64,000 bases of DNA from Gammaproteobacteria bacterium. Lineage in GTDB: Bacteria > Pseudomonadota > Gammaproteobacteria > Pseudomonadales > Azotimanducaceae. A model generated the notes under the pieces. It had not been told where the DNA came from. It made no database searches and saw only the letters and a program-made list of their open reading frames with translations. Positions 2,885-18,311 of the stretch are shown piece by piece. Made by a program: the position numbers and the translations under genes. Each line of letters begins with the position of its first letter. The first letter of the stretch is position 1. The stretch is taken from NCBI GenBank assembly GCA_021773565.1, contig JAJFJZ010000012.1:1-64000 (forward strand), written 5' to 3'.

Positions 2885-3562
2885 CTAGGAACTACGCCTT
2901 TTCCTTCGAAAAGCATTGCCCTTCCTTCTCAACCATCGATAATCTATACCAAATTTGACCAGGGCACCGATAATCTTTTTCTGCAATTGAGATAACTGAT
3001 CTCTATCTTCCAATCGATTCGATCTGGGAAATGGGTTTTTCGGGACAGGTTTTTCCAGAAATTTGCAAAGTTTTTCCCATCCATCGCCTTTACCCAAATC
3101 CAGTATCAGCAAGCGATTTTCCCGAACACCGCTGAAATATCGCTGAACTGTATGGTGATGTGTTTCATACACCCAGCGGAATCGTTCCTCATTAAATACG
3201 TTAGTCCCAAACAACAGAGTATTGTAAAAATCTACCGTCGATCCCTTTTTGGGTCGAGCGTAGGGTTGATTAAAACCTGCATGCCGGACAGAGTTAATCC
3301 AATCATCGATGGGTCTTACTGTTAGAATGAATTTCGAATCCGGCCATGCATTGTCTAATTGCGCGAACAGAGCGGGAATCGGTGTGTCCATAAGCGCATC
3401 GTATTTATTCAGCACACTGAGTTTGTAGTTAGAATCTCGTATTTCTTGTTCGGTGACTTTGTCATCCGGATTGTGATTTGAGCGAAAGCCTAATTCTGTA
3501 AGCGCGCTGTGTAAACTGGAGGTGCCGCTTTTAGGTAAACCCAACCCGAAAATCTTATTCAA
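2885..3562 (-). CDS. Sulfotransferase family protein
   Basis: This 225-residue protein begins with the nucleotide loop GLGLPKSGTSSLHSAL. It carries KFILTVRPIDDWINSV, the PAPS 3'-phosphate motif, and GDGWEKLCKFLEKPVPKNPFP-type residues near the end, typical of the small sulfotransferase family (Sulfotransfer_4-like). The start is TTG at 3562, preceded by a near-perfect Shine-Dalgarno aaggaggtg. It overlaps the 3' end of the GT2 gene by 8 bases on the same strand, so the two are almost certainly translationally coupled. The inferred job is sulfation of the glycan built by that glycosyltransferase. The C terminus is very basic (RRKGNAFRRKRR), which might help it bind a polyanionic substrate or the membrane. 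Confidence 0.75.
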   Translation of the reverse strand: MNKIFGLGLPKSGTSSLHSALTELGFRSNHNPDDKVTEQEIRDSNYKLSVLNKYDALMDTPIPALFAQLDNAWPDSKFILTVRPIDDWINSVRHAGFNQPYARPKKGSTVDFYNTLLFGTNVFNEERFRWVYETHHHTVQRYFSGVRENRLLILDLGKGDGWEKLCKFLEKPVPKNPFPRSNRLEDRDQLSQLQKKIIGALVKFGIDYRWLRRKGNAFRRKRRSS

Positions 3563-5023: not shown

Positions 5024-6214
5024 CTAGTCTACATTGAACCCCAACGGCGGGTTAGGAGCTACTGCTTCTGATGTGGCAGACCCGCTACTATCGCCACCGT
5101 AACAATAAGCGATATTCGAAGGACACACTGTTACGGATTGATATCTGTTCTTCTCTAACAATGGCACCAGCTCACTATCAAATGTATTTAGCCAAGCATT
5201 CCATACTATAAAATTTGCCCCAAGATATTTGTAGGCTGTACTGTGTAATTCTTCAGGAGTCCAATCAAATTTATTGGCCCTCTGTATTTGTGCCATTACC
5301 GGAATCTTTTTTGTGCCTTTGGAGCCATATGCGCGCTCATAGTAGTAGGGCGCAAAATTATCTTTTTCACAATTCGTATAGCCCGTATTGTCGCAAGGGA
5401 ATGTATCAGGATGAGTCAAGCCATCACCTGCTCCGACAACTGCATCAATTATTTGGTCAAAATACTCGTTTGGTTCATTACTTTTTAAAGAGTTAAAGGA
5501 TTGAAAGAGAATGGTGTGTTTAGCGGCGGCCGAAAGCTCCCTGTTGAATCTTACTATTTGATTGGTGTACGCAACTGTAGAGTACCCGCTTGTTTTCCTG
5601 TCTCTCCCAGCACCTCCAGCAGCAGTTTCCGCATTTACAATACCAACCAATCGAGCGTGAGTATCGAACTTTGCTGCAAAGCTCTTAAGAAGCGCAATAA
5701 ATCTATCCATCACTTCTGGCTCCCAATTACGGGCAAGACAGGGGGCTCCGCTTGCTTTGCACCAATACCAGTTTTTATCAAGGATATATTTGGGGAACAC
5801 GCCCGCCGGTTTGTTCGAAAAATCCCTATCCATAATACGAACGAGAAGGTATTTATCGTGGGCGCCAACTATATTTAGCACCTCGTTAATGAAGGAGAAA
5901 TCATAGACGTTTTCTTGTGGCTCAAAGTATCTCCACCGAGTCTGGAGAAGGATTCCTTTAAAATTTGAACGCTGTTTAACCAGCCTCTCTATTTTTATTA
6001 GCTCCTCTGCTCTAGCTACAGGGTTGTCTAAGATGTTCGATTGAACTGTATAGCGAATATAGTGTCCTGGTTGCCACTTGGTGGCATTTGCAGGGAGCGG
6101 TCCCGCACTTGCGGAAGCACATAGAGTGAAGATAAGAATCAAGCTGAATGAACGAACTGTGATGCTGAACAAAATTAGGCTATTCCATTTGCCAGCACTT
6201 GGTAGGATTGACAA
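5024..6214 (-). CDS. Exported TIM-barrel protein, glycoside-hydrolase-like
   Basis: This 396-residue protein starts at TTG 6214, chosen because agggga lies correctly upstream; no in-frame ATG occurs near the start. A signal sequence is visible (FSLILIFTLCASASA, about residues 23-37). The body resembles GH-A clan barrels: WRYFEPQENVYDFSFI at 94-109 is the usual W..FEP..G.YDFS strand, followed by YLLVRIMD and a GIVNAETA strand with Glu196 where an acid/base would sit. I see no clear second catalytic glutamate, and the protein ends in a short low-complexity tail before PPLGFNVD. It could be a glycan hydrolase or a non-catalytic binding protein for the polymer made in this locus. No exact family was recognised. 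Confidence 0.5.
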   Translation of the reverse strand: MSILPSAGKWNSLILFSITVRSFSLILIFTLCASASAGPLPANATKWQPGHYIRYTVQSNILDNPVARAEELIKIERLVKQRSNFKGILLQTRWRYFEPQENVYDFSFINEVLNIVGAHDKYLLVRIMDRDFSNKPAGVFPKYILDKNWYWCKASGAPCLARNWEPEVMDRFIALLKSFAAKFDTHARLVGIVNAETAAGGAGRDRKTSGYSTVAYTNQIVRFNRELSAAAKHTILFQSFNSLKSNEPNEYFDQIIDAVVGAGDGLTHPDTFPCDNTGYTNCEKDNFAPYYYERAYGSKGTKKIPVMAQIQRANKFDWTPEELHSTAYKYLGANFIVWNAWLNTFDSELVPLLEKNRYQSVTVCPSNIAYCYGGDSSGSATSEAVAPNPPLGFNVD

Positions 6215-6489
6215 AGCAACTCCCCTTTGAAGATACGAAATACAATATTGTCTACGCTTAGAATATGGGAATTCACTAGTTTTATTAGTGACCTACCTCT
6301 CATTCTGGCTTGAGAATTGCATTTTCCAAACCAGCCCCGACACTGCAACAAAAGTGCTGTTTTTGACCTGCTCTCCTGAAAACAGCAAGTTGCAATCGAG
6401 CATTTCACTATAGGTGAACCCCCTCTGGTAAACAACCCTTGAACAATGCGAACCCCGTGATGCCAAACCTAAAAATGAAGTCCAAATAT

Positions 6490-6730
6490 GATGGGCTTAA
6501 AACACTTCATAAACCTGAAAGAGAGCGTCAGCTGGAGTGGGCTTTTTCAGGCACATTTTGGCAATAAATTTTGGTGAACCATGTCTTGTTTCGAGGTCAG
6601 AGGTTTTGATCCTGGGAAGCCCCCGTGCCATTATGAGCAGATGAATTCCTCTTGTGAAGCTATGAATCAGAGTGCCAATTCGCACCCTTTGTCGTATTTG
6701 CTTAGCTCGGATACCTTTCTGCCTCTCTAA
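6490..6730 (+). pseudogene. Decayed copy of the GT-C/GT4 gene junction
   Basis: Positions 6490-6567 encode KTLHKPERERQLEW then TFWQ and a stop, matching the late GT-C segment TLHKLEKARQLGV at 10318-10360 but with most of the rest deleted. Then 6641-6730 encode MNSSCEAMNQSANSHPLSYL and LSSDTF before a stop, matching the GT4 N terminus MNSSREVVNQSADSQPLSYL except for one lost codon. The intergenic spacer is conserved too. So a former second copy of this gene pair has been deleted down to its junction. The similarity also supports ATG 10617 as the true GT4 start. Confidence 0.75.
6566..6724 (+). repeat. Diverged direct repeat, copy A (partner at 10542-10703)
   Basis: The segment begins aaattttggtgaacc and ends gatacctttctgcct. 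It aligns end to end with 10542-10703, differing in length by only one codon, with roughly three quarters to four fifths of bases identical by eye. The copies are about 4 kb apart in direct orientation and bracket the UbiA-GtrA-HAD-GT-C block. Confidence 0.8.
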
Positions 6731-6774
6731 TCTGATTGGTGCCAAATGGGGAAACTGACAAGGACGTTAGAAAC

Positions 6775-7749
6775 ATGGGCGTGAAATTACCTGAAACTGT
6801 CAACGACGCGGAAAAAATATCCCCTCTACTATCCGATTACATAGCTATCGCGCGCCCCGATCATTGGTTCAAAAACATCTTTATGATACCAGGCGCAGCC
6901 GTAGCATACGTTCTGGGTGCGCCGCTAAATCCAGCGTCCCTGCTAACTTTTGCGTTGGCCCTCATCTCAACGTGTCTGATAGCATCAGCCAATTACACTA
7001 TTAATGAATTTCTGGATGCAAAATTTGATAGCTTCCACCCAGTCAAATCACAACGCCCTTCCGTATCAGGTAGAATTTCTGCTCAGCTAGTGGCTATACA
7101 ATGGCTGGTACTTGGTTCTTTGGGACTTGTGCTGGCCTGGTATATTTCCCCACAGATGTTTCTTGCCGCGGGATTATTGCTAGCAATGGGAGGCATATAT
7201 AACGTTCAGCCCTTTAGAACAAAAGACCGTATCTACATAGACGTCCTATCAGAGTCGATAAACAATCCCATAAGATTCTTGTTAGGCTGGTTGGCATTTG
7301 CCCCTGCGGTATTTCCACCATCAAGTATACTGATAGCCTATTGGATGGGTGGTGCATTTCTCATGGCCGTAAAACGGTATGCGGAGTATCGCTTTATCGA
7401 TGACCCTGTGCGCGCCGGTCTCTATCGCGCATCATTCAGAAGATACACTCAGGAAACACTGATTTTATCTGCTTTTTTTTACGCGACGACTTCCGCTTTC
7501 TTTCTTGGCATATTTCTCATTAAGTATAGAATCGAGTTTATTTTGAGCTTGCCTCTTTTCGCACTTTTGTTTGTTTGGTATCTGCACCTCGGTATGCGTC
7601 TCAATTCCGTAACACAAACTCCCGAGAAACTTTACAAGGAGAAGCATTTTATGCTTTTTCTTATCTTGCTAACTGTAGTGGTAGTCACACTATTTTTTGT
7701 CGACATAGCGTGGTTAGAGATACTTGTTACATCTCGTGCTCTCAACTAA
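6775..7749 (+). CDS. UbiA-family prenyltransferase, DPPR-synthase-like
   Basis: This 324-residue integral membrane protein has about eight or nine hydrophobic segments. It begins RPDHWFKNIFM and carries the first Asp-rich motif NYTINEFLDAKFDSFHP (Asn77, Asp81, Asp85) followed by KSQRP, the pattern of UbiA enzymes of the decaprenyl-phosphate phosphoribosyltransferase type. A second polar motif, TKDRIYIDVLSESINNPIR, replaces the second Asp-rich loop. The likely reaction is transfer of phosphoribose from PRPP to polyprenyl phosphate. ATG 6775 is chosen because aagga precedes it; the frame opens at TTG 6736 within the decayed repeat. The stop codon abuts the GtrA start with no gap, so the two are coupled. 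The prenyl acceptor and sugar are inferred from family resemblance only. Confidence 0.75.
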   Translation: MGVKLPETVNDAEKISPLLSDYIAIARPDHWFKNIFMIPGAAVAYVLGAPLNPASLLTFALALISTCLIASANYTINEFLDAKFDSFHPVKSQRPSVSGRISAQLVAIQWLVLGSLGLVLAWYISPQMFLAAGLLLAMGGIYNVQPFRTKDRIYIDVLSESINNPIRFLLGWLAFAPAVFPPSSILIAYWMGGAFLMAVKRYAEYRFIDDPVRAGLYRASFRRYTQETLILSAFFYATTSAFFLGIFLIKYRIEFILSLPLFALLFVWYLHLGMRLNSVTQTPEKLYKEKHFMLFLILLTVVVVTLFFVDIAWLEILVTSRALN

Positions 7750-8142
7750 ATGACCCGCTTTATCTACTACTGCCTTAGTGGTGGAATTGCATTCTCAGTT
7801 CATCTTCTGGTATTAACCGTGCTTGTAGAATTTTTTTACTACGAGGAAGCACTGGCAACTATGGCTGGCTTTATTGCAGCTTGGCCAGTAAATTTTCTGT
7901 TGCAAAGGCGAGTTGTATTTCAGGTTGAGGACAAGTCAGGAACGCGTTTTTTTCGATATAGCGCAGTCACTTTTCTGACCTTTTTTTTGAATGCCGGTTT
8001 GTTTGTGTTTTTGACAAACATACTGGCTATTTACTATGTAACAGCCCAGTTCCTTACCACGATCGTGATACTGCTTGTTAACTTCTGGTTCAACACAAAG
8101 TGGACTTTTCACACAGAAGAAGGGAAGGACGGTATTAGCTAG
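7750..8142 (+). CDS. GtrA-family membrane protein
   Basis: This 130-residue protein has four transmembrane segments, the usual length and topology for GtrA. FIYYCLSGGIAFSVHLLV opens the first helix, and NFLLQRRVVFQ plus VNFWFNTKWTF give the two conserved aromatic/basic ends. Family members are thought to help translocate polyprenyl-linked sugars across the inner membrane; mycobacterial Rv3789, linked to decaprenyl-phospho-arabinose, is a relative. It starts immediately after the UbiA stop and overlaps the HAD gene by one base, so it is part of one translational unit. Its inferred job is flipping the lipid-linked sugar made by the UbiA/HAD pair to the periplasmic side for the GT-C enzyme. Confidence 0.8.
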   Translation: MTRFIYYCLSGGIAFSVHLLVLTVLVEFFYYEEALATMAGFIAAWPVNFLLQRRVVFQVEDKSGTRFFRYSAVTFLTFFLNAGLFVFLTNILAIYYVTAQFLTTIVILLVNFWFNTKWTFHTEEGKDGIS

Positions 8143-8792
8143 TGCAAAGAATTATTGTATTCGACCTGGATGGAACTTTGTTAAGCGGAGACAGCTTCAT
8201 TCGTTTTCTGGTCGGGCTAATGAAGATTCGTCCTGCTCGGCTATACAGAGTTCTATTGTTGCCCTTCGCCATTTTCGTTTTTGCTTGCAACTTGCGTGAT
8301 AATTCCTGGCTTAAATCCGTTTTTTTGCATGCGATACTAGGTGGACTGAGGCAGTCCGAGCTTGAGAGTTACATAAACAATTTCGTGCATACTCTAATAG
8401 GTAAACAACTGCGTCCAATTGCGCTGCGACGGCTAAAAGACCATCAAAAAAATGGTGATTACCTCATTCTGGCATCTGCAAGCCCAGACATATATGTAGC
8501 TCCTTTCGGAAAAGAGCTTGGCTTCGATGAAATGATCTGTACCAGGCTAAGAAAAAGGAAGAACCGGTATACGGGAGAATTTATCGATGAAAACTGTTAT
8601 GGGAGGGTTAAACTGGAGAGACTTGACCAGAGTCTGGGTCATACGAATATCGATGTAGCATATTCAGATCACGATGCAGACTTACCGCTTCTACTAGCAG
8701 CAAAGACCGCGGTCGCAGTCAGTCCAAATGCAAAGCTAGCAAGATTCGCATCAAAACACGGTATTGTAGTCGAAAACTGGGAAGCAACATGA
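8142..8792 (+). CDS. HAD-superfamily subfamily IB phosphatase
   Basis: This 216-residue protein has the HAD nucleophile motif FDLDGTLL (Asp8, Asp10), motif II in ILASASPD, a conserved Lys in YGRVKLERL, and the motif IV acidic cluster YSDHDADLPLL. These define a cytosolic Mg-dependent phosphatase of the SerB/TIGR01490 type. It starts at GTG 8142, overlapping gtrA by one base, with ggaagg upstream, and overlaps the next gene by four bases (ATGA). In other bacteria a HAD domain of this class is fused to UbiA phosphoribosyltransferases, so the likely substrate here is the 5'-phosphate of a polyprenyl-phosphoryl-pentose. That substrate is an inference from gene neighbourhood. Confidence 0.8.
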   Translation: MQRIIVFDLDGTLLSGDSFIRFLVGLMKIRPARLYRVLLLPFAIFVFACNLRDNSWLKSVFLHAILGGLRQSELESYINNFVHTLIGKQLRPIALRRLKDHQKNGDYLILASASPDIYVAPFGKELGFDEMICTRLRKRKNRYTGEFIDENCYGRVKLERLDQSLGHTNIDVAYSDHDADLPLLLAAKTAVAVSPNAKLARFASKHGIVVENWEAT

Positions 8793-10537
8793 ACGACTCC
8801 AAAGTATTGTCATATCTACTGTGGGGGTTGGCATTCAGCATTCCAATATTTCTGGTCGGCATTTCCTTTCTTAGCTACGAGATATTTAAATCCTTCTTCG
8901 ATACGATGACGACAGACGGTGATGCGAGTCGCGTTACCAGAGCGTTATTCGAGTTAGTGGTTATTGGCTTCCGTTCGCTGGCAGTCGTACTGGCTTCGTT
9001 TATGGGTCTGTATATCTTTTTCCGCGGGCAAATTCAGCCCAGCGTGGAAAAAACACCACTGGTTCAGTTTTTTCTCCAAAAGCTTGTAACCTGGATTCGA
9101 ACTGAGGAGCGGGCTCATCTCGCCGTTCTGGGTGCAATATTCGCGGTGGGTGCAGCGTTAAGACTTTTCTATTCCTCTATGCCTATGCGTTCTGATGAGG
9201 CATGGACGTACTACCATTTCATAGACCAGCCGTTCGTCCTAACATTTTCATTATACTTTACCAACAACCACCTATTTCATTCTGTACTTGCGCATTTGTC
9301 AGTGAATATGTTCGGCGATACATTATGGGCATTCCGCCTCCCTGCGTTAATCGCAAGTATATTGGTGATTCCTGCCATCTATTTTCTTTTTCGCCGCCTG
9401 TCGGGTAAAGCCGCAGGATTGTTGGCGGCTGCACTCATTGCGCCCTGGCCCATGTTAATTGATTACTCAAGTAACTCGCGTGGCTATAGTATTATGATGT
9501 TACTTACTGTTCTATTATTTGTAGCAGCAAATCGAATGCGGCAGGAGAACGATTCGTTCTCAAAATTTTCCTTTGGAACAATTGCTGCCCTCGGCCTCTA
9601 TACAATTCCTGCGTTTATTCTACCTCTAGGTAGTGCTGGCTTATGGCTGGTATTTTCTGTGCTCACGGGAAATGCTGTAGGAACCAGCTGGTTATTCATC
9701 AGAGGGTTATGCTGGACCGCAGTTGGCGCGCTATCACTAACATTTCTATTGTATCTGCCAGTTTTTGTTGTAAGCGGGTTCGACTCCGTTTTTGGTAATC
9801 CTATGGTTGTTGGTGTGACAGAGAGCCCTCTCTTTTTGGCTGTTGGCAGCTTGAAATGGGCGTGGAAGGCGCAGTGGTTTAGTAATTTTCCTATCACGTT
9901 ACAATTGGTTCTCGGCGCAGGATTTCTCGCCACGGCTATGCGAACTAAAAGTTTCGGCGTACCACTATGGTTGCCAGCTTTGGTTTGGTGCGCGTTCATT
10001 ATCAGTATAACAAATGTCCAAGTGCCAACGAGAGTTTGGGTTTTCGCGCTTCCGATTTTTTTGGGTTTAGCGGCTACTGGACTTTCATTTTTACCCAGGT
10101 TTTCGAAATTTGATACTACCGTTATCTTACTAGTGGTTCTAATCGGAGGAGCAATCGTCGCCATTAAATCACCCGCATATTTTTTTAAGGAGTATGGTGC
10201 TTTTCCAGAAGCTGAGGCGGTTGCTTTGTACGTTTCCGGTGCGATAGAAGAAGATGATGCCTTGGTGTCCGTTTTCCCTGGCAGGATAACAGTAGACTAT
10301 TATGGCATGCGGCATAACACACTTCATAAACTTGAAAAGGCACGTCAGCTGGGAGTGAATGGCAAGTTTAACCGTATATTCGTTGTCCTGAATTCAGGGG
10401 AAGACTCGTTGACGAACATTTTGGCTGTTAATGATAAGCAATTTGGTACCAGTTTACTGTTAAACCAATACAAAACACTCCATATAGAATCAATTGGTGA
10501 AGCGTCTGTAGTGACTGCGAGTGTAATTTCTGACTGA
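8789..10537 (+). CDS. GT-C membrane glycosyltransferase (GT39/GT83-like)
   Basis: This 582-residue protein has roughly a dozen hydrophobic segments and the periplasmic loop motif MRSDEAWTYYHF, whose Asp136-Glu137 pair matches the catalytic acidic residues of GT-C enzymes that use polyprenyl-phosphate sugars. Compared with typical family members it has an extra N-terminal module of about 110 residues with two membrane segments. It overlaps the HAD gene by four bases. The inferred role is transfer of a polyprenyl-linked pentose to a periplasmic acceptor glycan or protein. A broken copy of its 3' end lies at 6490-6567. The donor and acceptor are not determined. Confidence 0.7.
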   Translation: MNDSKVLSYLLWGLAFSIPIFLVGISFLSYEIFKSFFDTMTTDGDASRVTRALFELVVIGFRSLAVVLASFMGLYIFFRGQIQPSVEKTPLVQFFLQKLVTWIRTEERAHLAVLGAIFAVGAALRLFYSSMPMRSDEAWTYYHFIDQPFVLTFSLYFTNNHLFHSVLAHLSVNMFGDTLWAFRLPALIASILVIPAIYFLFRRLSGKAAGLLAAALIAPWPMLIDYSSNSRGYSIMMLLTVLLFVAANRMRQENDSFSKFSFGTIAALGLYTIPAFILPLGSAGLWLVFSVLTGNAVGTSWLFIRGLCWTAVGALSLTFLLYLPVFVVSGFDSVFGNPMVVGVTESPLFLAVGSLKWAWKAQWFSNFPITLQLVLGAGFLATAMRTKSFGVPLWLPALVWCAFIISITNVQVPTRVWVFALPIFLGLAATGLSFLPRFSKFDTTVILLVVLIGGAIVAIKSPAYFFKEYGAFPEAEAVALYVSGAIEEDDALVSVFPGRITVDYYGMRHNTLHKLEKARQLGVNGKFNRIFVVLNSGEDSLTNILAVNDKQFGTSLLLNQYKTLHIESIGEASVVTASVISD

Positions 10538-10541
10538 AGTT

Positions 10542-10703
10542 AAATTTTGGTGAACCAAGTTTGGTTTTTGAGTTAGAGGTTTTGATCTCATGTGGTCTCC
10601 ATGCCATTATCAGCAGATGAATTCCTCTCGTGAAGTAGTGAATCAAAGTGCCGATTCACAACCATTGTCTTATTTGTTTCTAAGCTCGGATACCTTTCCG
10701 CCT
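10542..10703 (+). repeat. Diverged direct repeat, copy B (partner at 6566-6724)
   Basis: The intact copy covers the spacer between the GT-C and GT4 genes and the first 29 codons of GT4. See the decayed partner upstream. Reading frames are preserved only in this copy. Confidence 0.8.
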
Positions 10704-11876
10704 TTTCGTGTCGACGTAACCGTTCTATTTGGACAACAAATGGCAGAACGTGGTCACAAAATCGATTGGTTGTTACAGTCCAGAGAAGAATGCAACAAAA
10801 GCTGTGAAGTGGATTGGAATGGCTGGACAGTGCATGTCGGTGCCACAGATCTGGGTACATCTCGAATTCGGCGAGTGTGGAAGCATCTTCTGGATTGGAA
10901 AAATGATTATCGGGTTTTCAAGCTTGCCAGAAACAACAATTATGACTTTATCCAGGTAAAGGATAAATTTTTTGCAGCACTGCTGGGGATCATTGCAGCA
11001 AGAAGGAACAACTGTGCCTTCGTTTACTGGTTGTCCTACCCCTACCCCGAAGCTTCTCTATATGCAGCCAAAATCGGAACCGCGCGTTATCGTTTTCTCT
11101 TTCTTCTGCGTGGACATATTTTCAAATTCCTCCTTTACAAGATTATTGCCCGGCATGCCGACCATATTTTTGTACAAAGTGAACAGATGAAACGAGATTT
11201 CCAGGGGGAAAACGTTCCGGCCTCTCTGATTAGTGCTGTGCCCATGGGCTACTCACCGAAGCTATTTGATAATTTTGTTCCTGCGGATGTGAGTGATCCA
11301 GGACCTTTCAGCATTGTTTACATTGGAACATTGCTAAAAACACGGCGTTTCGATTTCATGGTTCGTGTATTGGCGCTCGTACAAAAGGAAATCCCGGAGG
11401 CCATTCTCTATATGGTGGGTCCGGAAGAACTTCCTGGAGACGCTGACGTACTTCTGGATGAAGCCAAAAGACTGGGCGTTACAGACAACCTCGTTATAAC
11501 GGGACGACTCGAGCGTCATGAGGCATTATCCTATGTAGCCCAGGCTGGGGTTTGCGTCTCGCCATTTTTTCCAACACCGGTTCTTGATTCAACTTCACCA
11601 ACTAAACTGATTGAATACATGGCCCTGAAGAAGGTGGTTGTGGCCAATGAACATCCTGAACAGTACCAGGTGATCACTGAAAGCGGTGGTGGAATCTGCG
11701 TGAAGTATGCTGAGGAACCATTCGCAGAAGCGATAATCACTCTACTACGAGATCCGGAACGAGCGAGAGCAATGGGCGAAGATGGCTTTAACTACGTTCA
11801 AAAGACCAGAACATATGCGCATATTGCGGATGAAGTTGAATATGCCTACAAAAAGCTGCTGGGTGCCAGAGCTTAA
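10617..11876 (+). CDS. Family 4 glycosyltransferase
   Basis: This GT-B protein has 419 residues. The N-terminal half opens with YLFLSSDTFPPFRVDVTVLF, the usual first strand plus acceptor loop. The C-terminal Rossmann half has IVYIGTLLKTRRFDFMV, ILYMVGPEEL, VITGRL and SPTKLIEYMALKKVVVA, in which Glu of the IEYMA motif is the retaining GT4 nucleotide-sugar contact. It is cytosolic or membrane-associated. ATG 10617 is chosen because the decayed copy at 6641 preserves the same N terminus. It lies 79 bases after the GT-C gene and is probably co-transcribed. The sugar specificity is unknown. Confidence 0.85.
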   Translation: MNSSREVVNQSADSQPLSYLFLSSDTFPPFRVDVTVLFGQQMAERGHKIDWLLQSREECNKSCEVDWNGWTVHVGATDLGTSRIRRVWKHLLDWKNDYRVFKLARNNNYDFIQVKDKFFAALLGIIAARRNNCAFVYWLSYPYPEASLYAAKIGTARYRFLFLLRGHIFKFLLYKIIARHADHIFVQSEQMKRDFQGENVPASLISAVPMGYSPKLFDNFVPADVSDPGPFSIVYIGTLLKTRRFDFMVRVLALVQKEIPEAILYMVGPEELPGDADVLLDEAKRLGVTDNLVITGRLERHEALSYVAQAGVCVSPFFPTPVLDSTSPTKLIEYMALKKVVVANEHPEQYQVITESGGGICVKYAEEPFAEAIITLLRDPERARAMGEDGFNYVQKTRTYAHIADEVEYAYKKLLGARA

Positions 11877-11897
11877 TCACAGGTTTAGTTTTATCGT

Positions 11898-12668
11898 TTA
11901 GCTTTTTGCTAGTTCTCTGGAGCGCGCATAGGCAGTGGCACACAGTTGTGCAATTGTCGTACGCTCCTGATCTGATATTCTTTCTGCTTTAGCGAGGCTT
12001 TTTTGGTTGATCACACTTCCAAATTTAGCGCTCCATGGTAAACCGAGAAAATCACAAATGGTTTTCAGGGTAGGCTCACTGTTTTGAACCAGAGATTCAT
12101 ATTCAATGACCAATAGCTGATCTTCAGTGAGTGATTTAGTGAGGAATTCCAGCTGTCGAACCTTGCCAACATAGGATAAACAAGCGCGTTCGATGGGCTT
12201 GATGCTCCATACACCCCACCGGTTTAACTTCATCTCTTGTTGTTTGTTCAACTGCTCGCGTCCGCAGGACAAAAACAGCTCGTTTAGTGCAAATCGTTTC
12301 CAGTTGTACAACATTGAACAAACAACTGAATCCGGATTTCTAATCAGCCAGATTAATTTGAATGGATTGGTGAGTTCGGCAAATTCAAAGTATTGTTCGT
12401 TCAGGTAAGTAGTTTGCAAACAGCATCTACCCACTATATCCAGCTGTCTTTGACCGCTGAGTATAATCGCAGCATCCAATTCCGCATCTTTGCTCCACGA
12501 AAAATCTGCCATTGTTTCATGCCCTGTAATTACCTTGGCGAGCATCGTTCCGCCCGATCGCTGGCAACCTGATATAAAGACAGGATCTGTGAAATCGCCT
12601 GTTTGGGCTAGCAGGTTTCCTTTAGGACGCACTATGCGTCCAAATTGTTTCCAGGTGTGTATCTGCAT
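11898..12668 (-). CDS. Sulfotransferase
   Basis: This 256-residue protein has the PAPS loop PVFISGCQRSGGTMLAKVI at about residues 28-46, the 3'-phosphate motif KLIWLIRNPDSVVCSML around residue 107, and a C-terminal ICDFLGLPWS segment seen in many sulfotransferases. ATG 12668 is supported by aggaaa just upstream; longer frames extend into the neighbouring isomerase gene in another frame. It lies 29 bases after that gene on the same strand, so it may be the last gene of a three-gene unit with the hydrolase and isomerase, although its role fits the glycan locus better. It converges on the GT4 gene. Confidence 0.75.
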   Translation of the reverse strand: MQIHTWKQFGRIVRPKGNLLAQTGDFTDPVFISGCQRSGGTMLAKVITGHETMADFSWSKDAELDAAIILSGQRQLDIVGRCCLQTTYLNEQYFEFAELTNPFKLIWLIRNPDSVVCSMLYNWKRFALNELFLSCGREQLNKQQEMKLNRWGVWSIKPIERACLSYVGKVRQLEFLTKSLTEDQLLVIEYESLVQNSEPTLKTICDFLGLPWSAKFGSVINQKSLAKAERISDQERTTIAQLCATAYARSRELAKS

Positions 12669-12697
12669 TCTATTTCCTGCCCTCACACTACACCCGG

Positions 12698-13357
12698 CTA
12701 TCGCGCGGTCAAGCCTTCGTTCTTGAGCCGCCAGAGCAACACTTCCAAACGATCCTGACCAAAGAATGGTTCTCCCCGGAAGGCACAGGTTGGTACGCCC
12801 CAATGGCCTGCCTTTTCATGCGCTACCTGGTTTTGTTCTATAGCCGCCTCCAATCGCTGTTCATCTCTATCTACCAATTGATCAAGCTCGGATAGATTCA
12901 GCCCGGCTCGATCCGTCGCCCGGGCGAGGTGGTCAGCTTCATGCCAGTTTACAGTACCCTGCCAAATGAGCCGCGAGATTTCGTCTGCAAATTCGATACC
13001 CTTTCCCTGCTCCTGTGCCAGAACACCCAGCCTCGTCAAGCGATAGATATGCGGCTGGTCTTCGCTGGTGCGAGGTCGACCGTCGTCTCCCTGAAATTGA
13101 TTTACCGGATCCGGATTCGGCCAGGTAAGGGGAAGCTCCAGAAATTGGGCTACTCGAACAAGGTCTTGTAGAAAGTATGTTGGCCACATTGGATTCATTT
13201 GTAGAAAGAAGTCTGGTGTCCTGATCGCTATTGGGTACACCGGACGAAAGACTACTTTCAAATTATATTGTTCCTGCCAACTACGTAGTCTGGGCGTGGC
13301 AAGATAAGACCATGGGCTGCGAAACGACCAAAATACATCTACTTCCAGGTTGCTCAT
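12698..13357 (-). CDS. DsbA-like 2-hydroxychromene-2-carboxylate isomerase family protein
   Basis: This 219-residue protein belongs to the GST-kappa/HCCA isomerase branch of the thioredoxin fold. VDVFWSFRSPWSYLATPRL carries the catalytic SPWSY serine in place of the CXXC of true DsbA, and GHWGVPTCAFRGEPFFGQDR near the C terminus is the cis-Pro loop plus the FFGQDRL signature. Family members are glutathione-dependent isomerases in aromatic degradation, but many homologues lie outside such pathways. ATG 13357 is preceded by aggag. It is 12 bases downstream of the alpha/beta hydrolase, so the two are an operon. No naphthalene-pathway gene is nearby, so the substrate is unknown. Confidence 0.8.
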   Translation of the reverse strand: MSNLEVDVFWSFRSPWSYLATPRLRSWQEQYNLKVVFRPVYPIAIRTPDFFLQMNPMWPTYFLQDLVRVAQFLELPLTWPNPDPVNQFQGDDGRPRTSEDQPHIYRLTRLGVLAQEQGKGIEFADEISRLIWQGTVNWHEADHLARATDRAGLNLSELDQLVDRDEQRLEAAIEQNQVAHEKAGHWGVPTCAFRGEPFFGQDRLEVLLWRLKNEGLTAR

Positions 13358-16148: not shown

Positions 16149-18311
16149 TTAGAAACTTCGGTACTTCTCTGCTTCTTCTGGTTCACCGCGACCGTGGTAG
16201 AACTCTTCAAGCCACCGGTTAGCATTAGCTACAAAAAAAGGTAATGCACCACTGTCCTTACTTAGCACCAGATAACTCTCCAGTAACAAGGCTTCTGCTA
16301 CCTCAAACTGCAATAAACCGGCCAGTGCAGCACCTTCAGCACTGATTGCCCCAGCCGTTCGCCAGTGATCTTTTGCCAGCGCCAACAGGCAAATGGCTTT
16401 TGCTTCAGCAGCCGCGGTTCGCGCCTCCTCAAACCGGGCGGTTTCAATTAGCAAGCTGGCCAGTAGGGTCAAGCTGCCAGCAACATCTATGTGTTCATTT
16501 CCCAGCAGCTTTTTGCGCAGCCCAACGGCTTCATAAAGCAGCGGTTCGGCGGAGTCGTAATCACCGTTTTCCATCATCCACATTGCAAGGTTTCCCATGC
16601 CTCCGGCAACGGCAGTGTGTTCATTACCAACGGTGCGTCGATACATTTCCAACGACTCACGCATCATAGTGCGTGCCGCCCCGGAATCTCCCTTTTCATA
16701 CAACAGAAATGCGAGATTGTTCAGCGCTGCAGCCACTTCCGGATGATCGTTTCCCAATAGCTGCCGCTGCATGGAGATTGCCTCCCGATACATAACCTCG
16801 GCATCGTCATACTTTTGCTGGTAGTACAAAGCAAGTGCGATATTGTTTAGTCCCAGAGCTATTTCCGTGTGCATATCACCCAGCAAAAAACGCTTCATCG
16901 CCAGCGCTTCCCTCAAAAGGATTTCGGACTCATGGTCTTCACCGATTTCGCCCAGCAGAAAACCAAGATTGTTTAATGCCTCTGCCAAATCGGTGTGCTG
17001 CGTGAGGTGCAATTTGCGTTGCAGTGCAACCGCTTCACGCATCAATGGTAAAGCACCATCAAAGTCACTCTGGTCGTACAGGTTTAAGGCAAGTCCCTCC
17101 ATGCTCTTGGCATACTCGGCGCTATTTTTTCCTAAAAGTCTGCCTTGCAATGCCATGGCCTTGCGAAACAGGGGTTCGGCTTCTTCATATCGCCCCATAC
17201 GCCCCAACAAATCTGCAAGTTCGTACTGGCTGTTTGCGATATCAATGTGTGCCGGTCCAAGCAGTTCCTGACGCACGGACAGTGCTTCGCGATACATCTT
17301 CTCGGACTGCTCGTATTCAGCGGTCAGTTTAAGCACCTCACCAAGCCTGTCTGCTGATCGTGCAACTTCAAGATGTTCGTTGCCATATAGGTCCCGACGC
17401 TTTTTCAAAGCACTCTCCAGGAGCGAAGCCGCCGGTGGGTACAGAGCCAGACTCTTGTAAACCGTGCCCATGGTTTCCATCAGTGTAGCCTGTATAACAG
17501 GCTGTGAATCCAGCTCGCTCTCTATTCGAGCAGCACCCTTATCCATGATCTCGCGCGCTGTAATCGAATTGCCCAACGCCTCGTTTGGGTCTGAAACAGC
17601 AAACAAACCGACCAGAAAATCTGTCGTTTGCCGGGCAGTCTCCGCTTCTATTACCGCTTGTTTGCGGGCAAGCATTGCCGTTGTTGCCAGTCCCGTTGTT
17701 ACTACCATTCCGGCCACTGCGGCCGCGGTAATTATGTACATACGTAGCTGACGGCGCTGTTGTTCGCGTTGCTTAAGCGCATCGAAACCTACACCGAGAA
17801 TTCCGGAAATCAACTTAAGTTTTGCGTTTTGCTTGCCATCAGCGTGTGATCTTGCATCCGCTGCTATGGGTTCTGCAGGCGTATCGGTCAGTACTCCGTC
17901 TGCGCCCATTAAAAAACGGATTGCAGGTGGAAAACATTCTGTCTCTGTGCCCGGCTCACCATCTACGATCAGACAAAAAATACGGTTTTCTCTACCCAGA
18001 CGTTTGTAGGTCAGAATTTCTTCGTTGGTCCAGTGCGAATTCGCCGCATTCGGCGAACAAATAACAATCTGGCAGGCAGAGTCCTCAAGGGCCTGAGTTA
18101 ACTCAGTGCCCAGGCTGTGCGAGGATGACAGCTCCTCGCGATCGCGGAAAACCTTTCCCATGCGTTCTGGAACGCTACCCATATTCGTGGTCTCACCCAC
18201 CAGATATTTTGGCACACGAAAGGTTTCAAGCGCCTTGTGTAGCCAGGACGCCCACTTCTCATCCCTGTGGCTGTAGCTGATAAAAGCTCGATACTTATAT
18301 TCCCTGCCCAC
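16149..18311 (-). CDS. TIR domain - transmembrane - TPR protein
   Basis: This 720-residue protein starts at GTG 18311 with ggaggg upstream. Residues 5-155 form a TIR domain: YRAFISYSHRDEKWASWLHKAL (BB-loop region follows) and VICSPNAANSHWTNEEIL, where Trp94 and Glu98 match the catalytic W-x3-E of NAD-cleaving TIRs. A single membrane helix lies at about 190-213, placing TIR in the cytosol. Residues 255-700 hold about ten kinesin-light-chain-type 42-residue TPRs (HxEVAxxLNNLAxLLYxxGxYxxAExLxREAL). It may be a membrane sensor whose TPRs bind a ligand and whose TIR degrades NAD or makes a signal. It is not in an operon, and enzymatic activity is inferred only. Confidence 0.85.
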   Translation of the reverse strand: MGREYKYRAFISYSHRDEKWASWLHKALETFRVPKYLVGETTNMGSVPERMGKVFRDREELSSSHSLGTELTQALEDSACQIVICSPNAANSHWTNEEILTYKRLGRENRIFCLIVDGEPGTETECFPPAIRFLMGADGVLTDTPAEPIAADARSHADGKQNAKLKLISGILGVGFDALKQREQQRRQLRMYIITAAAVAGMVVTTGLATTAMLARKQAVIEAETARQTTDFLVGLFAVSDPNEALGNSITAREIMDKGAARIESELDSQPVIQATLMETMGTVYKSLALYPPAASLLESALKKRRDLYGNEHLEVARSADRLGEVLKLTAEYEQSEKMYREALSVRQELLGPAHIDIANSQYELADLLGRMGRYEEAEPLFRKAMALQGRLLGKNSAEYAKSMEGLALNLYDQSDFDGALPLMREAVALQRKLHLTQHTDLAEALNNLGFLLGEIGEDHESEILLREALAMKRFLLGDMHTEIALGLNNIALALYYQQKYDDAEVMYREAISMQRQLLGNDHPEVAAALNNLAFLLYEKGDSGAARTMMRESLEMYRRTVGNEHTAVAGGMGNLAMWMMENGDYDSAEPLLYEAVGLRKKLLGNEHIDVAGSLTLLASLLIETARFEEARTAAAEAKAICLLALAKDHWRTAGAISAEGAALAGLLQFEVAEALLLESYLVLSKDSGALPFFVANANRWLEEFYHGRGEPEEAEKYRSF

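Follow-up and report, generated by a model that had tools for sequence, protein, structure and literature searches.

The window analysed here, the whole 64,000-nucleotide stretch at the start of contig JAJFJZ010000012.1 from a gammaproteobacterium of the Azotimanducaceae, contains a block of genes that probably constitutes a compact periplasmic pentosylation module, with a UbiA-fold membrane protein acting like a polyprenyl-phosphate phosphoribosyltransferase (PPPRS). Judged from sequence comparisons and structure models, the assignment of this protein to PPPRS-like enzymes of the Rv3806c type, and not to those of the ubiquinone or heme type, is well supported. The genes concerned, with their Pfam matches, are as follows.

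6775–7749 (ATG start) or 6736–7749 (TTG start), + strand: UbiA-fold gene (Pfam UbiA, 1.9e-24)
7750–8142, + strand: gene for a small membrane protein of the GtrA family (Pfam GtrA, 2e-19)
8142–8792, + strand: HAD-IB phosphatase gene with a GTG start (Pfam HAD, 1.6e-34)
8789–10537, + strand: GT-C glycosyltransferase gene, ArnT/PMT fold (Pfam PMT_2, 1.1e-8)
10590–11876, + strand: GT4 glycosyltransferase gene (Pfam GT4 families, best 2.2e-16)

The list of open reading frames (ORFs) and the Pfam assignments agree on the head-to-tail arrangement described in the original prediction, with junctions of 0 (UbiA/GtrA), −1 (GtrA/HAD) and −4 bases (HAD/GT-C) and a GT4 gene that starts 52 bases 3′ of the GT-C end. 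The word "fused", used there, holds for genes that abut or overlap and not for their proteins, which are separate.

In the proposed pathway, the UbiA protein would transfer phosphoribose from phosphoribosyl pyrophosphate (PRPP) to undecaprenyl phosphate, as its residues, tree position and fold suggest, and the HAD-IB phosphatase would remove the 5′-phosphate to give undecaprenyl-phospho-ribofuranose. The GtrA protein, by its family a putative flippase of the lipid-linked pentose, would carry the lipid-linked ribose across the inner membrane, and the ArnT-like GT-C, a putative pentosyltransferase by its fold and Asp-Glu pair, would move the pentose onto a surface or lipid-linked glycan. The GT4, tied to the module by position alone, may help to build part of the acceptor glycan. 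The earlier proposal of a lipid-linked pentose module is borne out in the UbiA type, the protein families and the UbiA-GtrA-HAD order, with ribose as the likeliest sugar.

Likeness of the UbiA protein to Rv3806c

The PRPP, Mg and lipid-phosphate contacts of Rv3806c, as given in the available portion of PMC10994848, were mapped in Rv3806c numbering on an alignment of 130 proteins. Its rows include 83 members of the subfamily to which the window UbiA belongs (82 distinct ones, L045 and L066 being from one genome), 21 canonical PPPRS members and 24 UbiA/CyoE controls. Six of the controls were model-checked and over cut-off, comprising four heme O synthases and two 4-hydroxybenzoate octaprenyltransferases, the host genome's own two among them; the other 18 were assigned by identity to those or by Pfam score. 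The window UbiA keeps nine of the twelve mapped PRPP contacts (R22, K28, Y70, N73, D77, K87, R90, Y138 and K143). N73, R90, Y138, K143 and, for the most part, D77 are common to the UbiA/CyoE enzymes as well and do not discriminate. K28, Y70 and K87, together with H84 and P85, occur in all 21 canonical rows, in none of the 24 controls and in all 83 subfamily rows (80 for K28). The lipid-phosphate contact K191 is likewise kept and is found in a single control; this site is Asp in 19 of the 24 controls, whose second Asp-rich motif the window UbiA lacks at this position.

A tree of these proteins points in the same direction. The subfamily (84 rows with the window protein, support 0.93) joins the canonical PPPRS proteins and Rv3806c (0.92), and all of these together stand apart from UbiA/CyoE with support 0.98. 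The window UbiA thus falls in a distinct branch of the enzyme that is widespread and, it appears, has not been studied; within this branch, identity to the window protein is 39–61%. A result that would have spoken against the original prediction, a grouping with quinone or heme enzymes, is not seen in the tree, in which UbiA/CyoE are the comparison group; MenA, ChlG and DGGGP synthase were judged by model scores alone. In a sequence search of the PDB with the window UbiA, only Rv3806c entries have E < 0.1 (best 1.6e-13), and its top-ranking NCBIfam models are those for HAD-UbiA proteins and decaprenyl-phosphate phosphoribosyltransferase, both well below their cut-offs. All 47 relatives aligned (44 from the subfamily and three canonical) match these models. 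The HAD-UbiA model PRK08238 is matched in one half by the window HAD and in the other by the window UbiA.

The AlphaFold2 model of the window UbiA has a predicted local distance difference test score (pLDDT) of 92, and its best fit is 8j8j, the PRPP-bound form of Rv3806c (Foldseek 4.7e-9; VIA Z 27.1, 2.6 Å over 283 residues). The comparison with Rv3806c that had been called for, in fold and in PRPP contacts, therefore agrees with the tree and the model ranking in favour of the predicted Rv3806c type. A separate candidate, the Ubi-297 prenyltransferase of Flavobacteria, was set aside because its description in the available portion of PMC9235831 distinguishes it from the phosphoribosyltransferases.

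Partner enzymes and gene neighbourhoods

In the window phosphatase, the residues of the HAD catalytic motifs are intact. The protein shares 40% identity with its counterpart in a subfamily locus of the Spongiibacteraceae (L044) and 34% with the HAD that neighbours a canonical-like UbiA (L050). In the GT-C protein, an acidic pair after the first helix (D136 and E137) is invariant in 15 sequences and is presumably catalytic. A catalytic acidic pair in GT-C is also supported in the available portion of PMC11127046. A structure model of the GT-C was obtained with moderate confidence (pLDDT 75). Its best matches, which are tied, are ArnT bound to undecaprenyl phosphate (5f15; Z 26.3, 4.8 Å over 413 residues) and Pmt4 (25.8); AftA (19.3) and Emb enzymes (15.7 at best) score lower. 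The Emb-type identity originally proposed was accordingly dropped for a fold closest to ArnT and PMT.

A scan of genome contigs found at least 571 relatives of the window UbiA, and the best 80, which are the most similar ones and not a random sample, were used to examine neighbourhoods. These loci belong to Gamma- and Alphaproteobacteria, Hymenobacter, Pedobacter, Rufibacter and others, and the subfamily as a whole spans proteobacteria, Bacteroidota and rhizobial plasmids. Relatives occur in 22 of 72,556 plasmid records, all less than 60% identical, and in none of 50,697 phage records (E 1e-5). Thirty UbiA/CyoE loci served as controls; each comes from the window genome or one of its relatives, and some are shortened by contig ends. 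At a distance of up to 1.5 kb, 54 of the 80 subfamily loci have a HAD phosphatase and 28 a PMT_2-type GT-C; up to 3 kb, the GT-C is found in 35 and a GMC oxidoreductase in 23. No HAD, GtrA, GT-C or GMC gene of these kinds lies within 1.5 kb in any control locus. GtrA is the next gene downstream of UbiA in 15 of the 80. A multi-helix protein of at least 330 residues is found within 3 kb in 69 loci, an enrichment of about twofold (67/147 near flanks against 27/124 flanks 6–8.5 kb away). The HAD types themselves differ, being mostly HAD-IB in proteobacterial loci and HAD-IA, placed upstream, in Bacteroidota, with exceptions such as a Desulfovibrio locus (L082).

The UbiA-GtrA-HAD-IB order recurs in seven of the 80 loci, in Gamma- and Alphaproteobacteria. 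The operon on plasmid pRL10 of Rhizobium johnstonii (RL_RS28975–RL_RS28965) shares the three families, overlapping genes and a UbiA of the same subfamily (45.6% identical), but its order is UbiA-HAD-GtrA, its HAD fits another Pfam model best and there is no GT-C among the listed neighbours; in Rhodobacter sp. CZR27 the order is HAD-UbiA-GtrA. Gene order thus varies while the family set recurs. Relatives of the window GT-C were found in two of 368 other genomes of the class, with no UbiA beside them in the two regions examined. The expectation of a conserved order is therefore upheld for UbiA-GtrA-HAD, while the four-gene order including the GT-C was not seen again.

Other members of the subfamily show further arrangements. 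A divergent UbiA (40% identical; L048:9344-14996) is next to a tandem array of three membrane proteins, each about 500 residues long, of which one is weakly GT87-like. On a 9.1-kb Paracoccus plasmid (L183), the subfamily UbiA neighbours a 467-residue protein with no Pfam match, and on a Rhodobacter plasmid (L182:4329-6986) a protein of 885 residues, annotated as a HAD hydrolase but also containing a second stretch that weakly resembles UbiA, adjoins a subfamily UbiA and GtrA. In the plasmid records examined, genes of the subfamily are annotated merely as "UbiA family prenyltransferase".

Identity of the pentose and alternative readings

Ribose is the likeliest pentose because the block shows no epimerase and no protein encoded in the genome reaches the DprE1 cut-off. 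The ORF list and Pfam reveal no redox gene within the block. With the DprE1 model (NF053785, cut-off 500), the genome search reaches 47.5 bits at best and one whole ORF scores 61.4, which agrees with the earlier remark that DprE1 is not visible; the same model is over cut-off in one of 14 control genomes. The genome encodes nine FAD_binding_4 proteins, all of which are better matched by models other than DprE1 (for glycolate oxidase subunits, a lactone oxidase-like FAD-linked oxidoreductase, MurB and xanthine dehydrogenase), and two of them with partial likeness to DprE1 have better PDB matches to other oxidases.

Several observations weigh against the reading of the block as a ribose-transferring module with a PPPRS-like first enzyme. 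The window UbiA scores 72.3 bits against a cut-off of 234 (PRK12324.1-2), 69.2 against 207 (PRK12324.1-4) and 61 against 474 for another phosphoribosyltransferase equivalog, and because these cut-offs are missed it is not filed under the PPPRS equivalogs. Its identity to canonical members is 24–29%. The 47 aligned relatives all match the general prenyltransferase model PRK12884 too, although on the window protein this model gives 44.7 bits against 72.5 for the top phosphoribosyltransferase-type model. Among the Rv3806c structures, only the PRPP-bound form stands out, the acceptor-bound form 8j8k (Z 23.5) being tied with an archaeal UbiA (23.4). At donor or lipid-phosphate sites, the subfamily carries D74E and Q135G in 83 of 83 rows and Y157N in 82, and K208 is Ala in the window protein. 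The D74 site matches D248 of Citrobacter youngae ORF15 by spacing. Around the enzyme, 26 of the 80 loci have no HAD within 1.5 kb, some of them at contig ends, and the GT-C is not conserved together with UbiA, GtrA and HAD. As to the sugar, an SDR-only epimerase elsewhere in the genome is possible, and GMC and SDR genes adjoin the same three genes in a related locus (L044/L092), so that within the subfamily the final sugar need not be ribose.

That locus (L044:2392-5957, the same as L092), from a member of the Spongiibacteraceae in the taxonomic order of the window genome, has a classical SDR, a small gene, a GMC and an extended SDR ahead of UbiA-GtrA-HAD. It lends some weight to an unlikely variant of the module in which an enzyme encoded elsewhere epimerises the pentose after the second step, so that the product is arabinofuranose or xylofuranose. 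Redox neighbours are also frequent in the subfamily (besides the 23 loci with GMC, an extended SDR in nine of 80), SDR proteins of the window genome bear a weak likeness to the L044 SDR, and a single SDR makes xylofuranose in C. youngae O2 according to the available portion of PMC11127046. What favours ribose over this variant is the lack of a DprE1 over cut-off and of a redox gene in the block, and the finding that the L044 GMC and SDR have weak partial matches only in the window genome (1.2e-6 and 3.4e-9).

The substitutions listed above bear on a second, rather improbable alternative, in which the subfamily UbiA would use a donor or acceptor other than PRPP and undecaprenyl phosphate, for instance another phosphopentosyl or glycosyl pyrophosphate, with the HAD trimming the product. 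In Rv3806c, Q135 contacts the ribose O3 and Y157 contacts the 5′-phosphate and the lipid phosphate; for Y157, a moderate effect is reported and some mycobacteria have Phe there (PMC10994848, available portion). The Ala mutant of D248 in C. youngae ORF15 barely works (PMC11127046, available portion). D74 is Asp in all 21 canonical rows, and the Q135 site is N, T or V in all 21 and K208 is variable among them, so neither Q135 nor K208 defines the PPPRS family. In transmembrane helix 5, the subfamily has a polar stretch (window numbering) in which E160 and N163 are present in 83 of 83 rows and S161, N164 and P165 in 82. E160, N163 and N164 occur in no canonical row and S161 in four of 21. Y157N, D74E, E160 and N163 are consequently the stronger marks.

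Such subfamily-fixed changes may mean another sugar or lipid, and three of them lie at or beside the donor and lipid-phosphate sites. In one genome (G266), a UbiA of the subfamily occurs together with a canonical-like one (G266:C412 and G266:C13; L046 and L053), which suggests different roles for the two. A PPPRS-like reaction nevertheless fits better with the pyrophosphate and Mg residues and with K28 and Y70 for the 5′-phosphate, all of which are kept, and with the company of two unlike HAD types, as expected of a 5-phosphate in need of removal. That the UbiA protein is instead an ordinary aromatic or heme prenyltransferase, placed by chance next to glycan genes, is extremely improbable. In its favour are the UbiA fold and weak matches, at about 45 bits, to models for BchG, CyoE and further prenyltransferases. 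It was rejected because diagnostic residues, tree, model ranking and fold all favour the phosphoribosyltransferases; in addition, the genome already encodes two enzymes over cut-off for those tasks, a heme O synthase (L001) and a 4-hydroxybenzoate octaprenyltransferase (L002), and HAD and glycan neighbours recur across distant phyla.

The GMC genes deserve separate mention. They lie near the subfamily UbiA in L110 (11026-12902) and 22 more loci, in 21 of the 23 with a protein of about 140 residues, two examples of which gave no Pfam match. The GMC flavoprotein could possibly replace DprE1. In a Pedobacter locus, it weakly matches a pyranose oxidase model (1.2e-11), a likeness that would suit a C2-oxidase and proves nothing. 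Listings from an open-licence literature library showed no account of a GMC enzyme in a lipid-pentose role; a single listed paper, on the diversification of M. abscessus (PMC8526041), contains both the GMC and the UbiA term. Tentatively, and with more doubt than confidence, the subfamily might represent a large group of membrane phosphoribosyltransferases whose donor pocket has been remodelled and which work with interchangeable HADs and GT-Cs and often with a GMC flavoprotein in place of DprE1 as sugar oxidase. It would form a parallel, DprE1-free lipid-pentose system found in both proteobacteria and Bacteroidota, and the sugar or lipid that it uses may be new to this role. The GMC neighbour would then be a candidate second route for epimerising lipid-linked ribose, beside DprE1/DprE2.

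Known systems and genomic setting

In the canonical mycobacterial pathway, decaprenyl-phospho-arabinose is made and used by Rv3806c, Rv3807c, DprE1/DprE2 and the Emb and Aft enzymes, and DprE1 is the target of benzothiazinones. The first enzyme of the window block is homologous to that of mycobacteria, has its best fold match there and keeps most of the PRPP contacts. The window system departs from the mycobacterial one in having no DprE1 over cut-off in the genome, a HAD phosphatase instead of Rv3807c, a GT-C nearer ArnT and a UbiA changed at Q135, Y157 and D74.

Another parallel is found in C. youngae, in which the chain from PRPP through polyprenyl-phospho-ribose to a GT-C was shown biochemically in 2024; the chain was described there as widespread, and other pentoses are made when DprE1/E2 or an SDR is added (PMC11127046, to which the following comparison is limited in its available portion). 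In that system the flippase is MATE/EmrE-like, the HAD is fused and the GT-C is GT136; in O1/O2, ORF15 is the PRP-PPPRS, ORF14 the flippase and ORF12 the GT136. Shared with the window block are a PPPRS or PPPRS-like protein of UbiA fold, a HAD phosphatase, a small known or putative flippase, a GT-C, the lack of need for an epimerase in the case of ribose and a gammaproteobacterial host. In the window, however, the HAD is a separate HAD-IB protein and not an N-terminal domain, the putative flippase is a GtrA protein, the UbiA is of another subfamily and no O-antigen locus was seen in the parts examined. The window GT-C model, of moderate confidence (pLDDT 75), shows short strands only at its C-terminus and no beta-rich carbohydrate-binding domain there. 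Since the same chain has already been shown, the window system is a variant: the type of pathway is known, and what is new is the unfused HAD-IB, the GtrA, the ArnT-like GT-C and the distinct UbiA subfamily. A search of the open-licence literature for GtrA with phosphoribosyl and GT-C terms found PMC11127046 alone.

Gram-negative UbiA-type phosphoribosyltransferases also serve glycan decoration in Pseudomonas aeruginosa/paraeruginosa PA7, by D-arabinosylation of pilin through a related D-arabinofuranose pathway (PMC12369383), and in Azorhizobium, where noeCHOP is linked to D-arabinosylation of Nod factors (PMC2443382). According to the available portions of these sources, both systems are reported or proposed to give arabinose, whereas the window block has no redox pair. 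Of the 368 other genomes sampled from the class, 46 contain a UbiA relative (E ≤ 1e-8), which in four of them belongs to the subfamily; of 25 canonical loci, 21 were checked, and all 21 have the phosphoribosyltransferase signature. The description of the pathway as unusual for this group consequently holds for the subfamily and not for the pathway, which is also known from C. youngae (PMC11127046, available portion). If the reading of the block is correct, many surface glycans of proteobacteria and Bacteroidota would carry pentofuranoses added outside the cytoplasm, and the residue signature and gene neighbourhood would allow such glycans to be predicted.

The host genome is 4.2 Mb in size and 98.4% complete. 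G+C content is 0.40–0.47 at 2–15 kb of the window, against 0.48–0.52 at 15–22 kb, and the window UbiA is matched (E ≤ 1e-15) in one of 144 other relatives (G133, 58% identical), which together suggest that the block was sporadically acquired. The genus-mate searched (G001) lacks it. A scan for promoters and terminators at 6200–12100 was uninformative, with seven and four sites against 9.4 and 6.8 in shuffles. None of ten large proteins scanned with Pfam at 21–63 kb is a recognised glycan gene of the kind expected in a sugar-polymer locus; nine belong to families of general metabolism, respiration, DNA or RNA functions or ion transport, and one has no Pfam match.

Near the module, the window contains a GT2, sulfotransferase-like proteins and a GT4. 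A Pfam-supported sulfotransferase gene (2885–3562) flanks the module, and the genes at 2104–2847 and 11898–12803 have sulfotransferase-like starts by a motif read by eye, the former with no Pfam and the latter with no NCBIfam match. On the minus strand, a gene beside the module (5024–6214) has a signal-like start and a weak likeness to GH42/GH35 beta-galactosidases, and another at 16149–18311 encodes a 720-residue protein whose start is TIR-like and which apparently contains TPR repeats, both features again read by eye.

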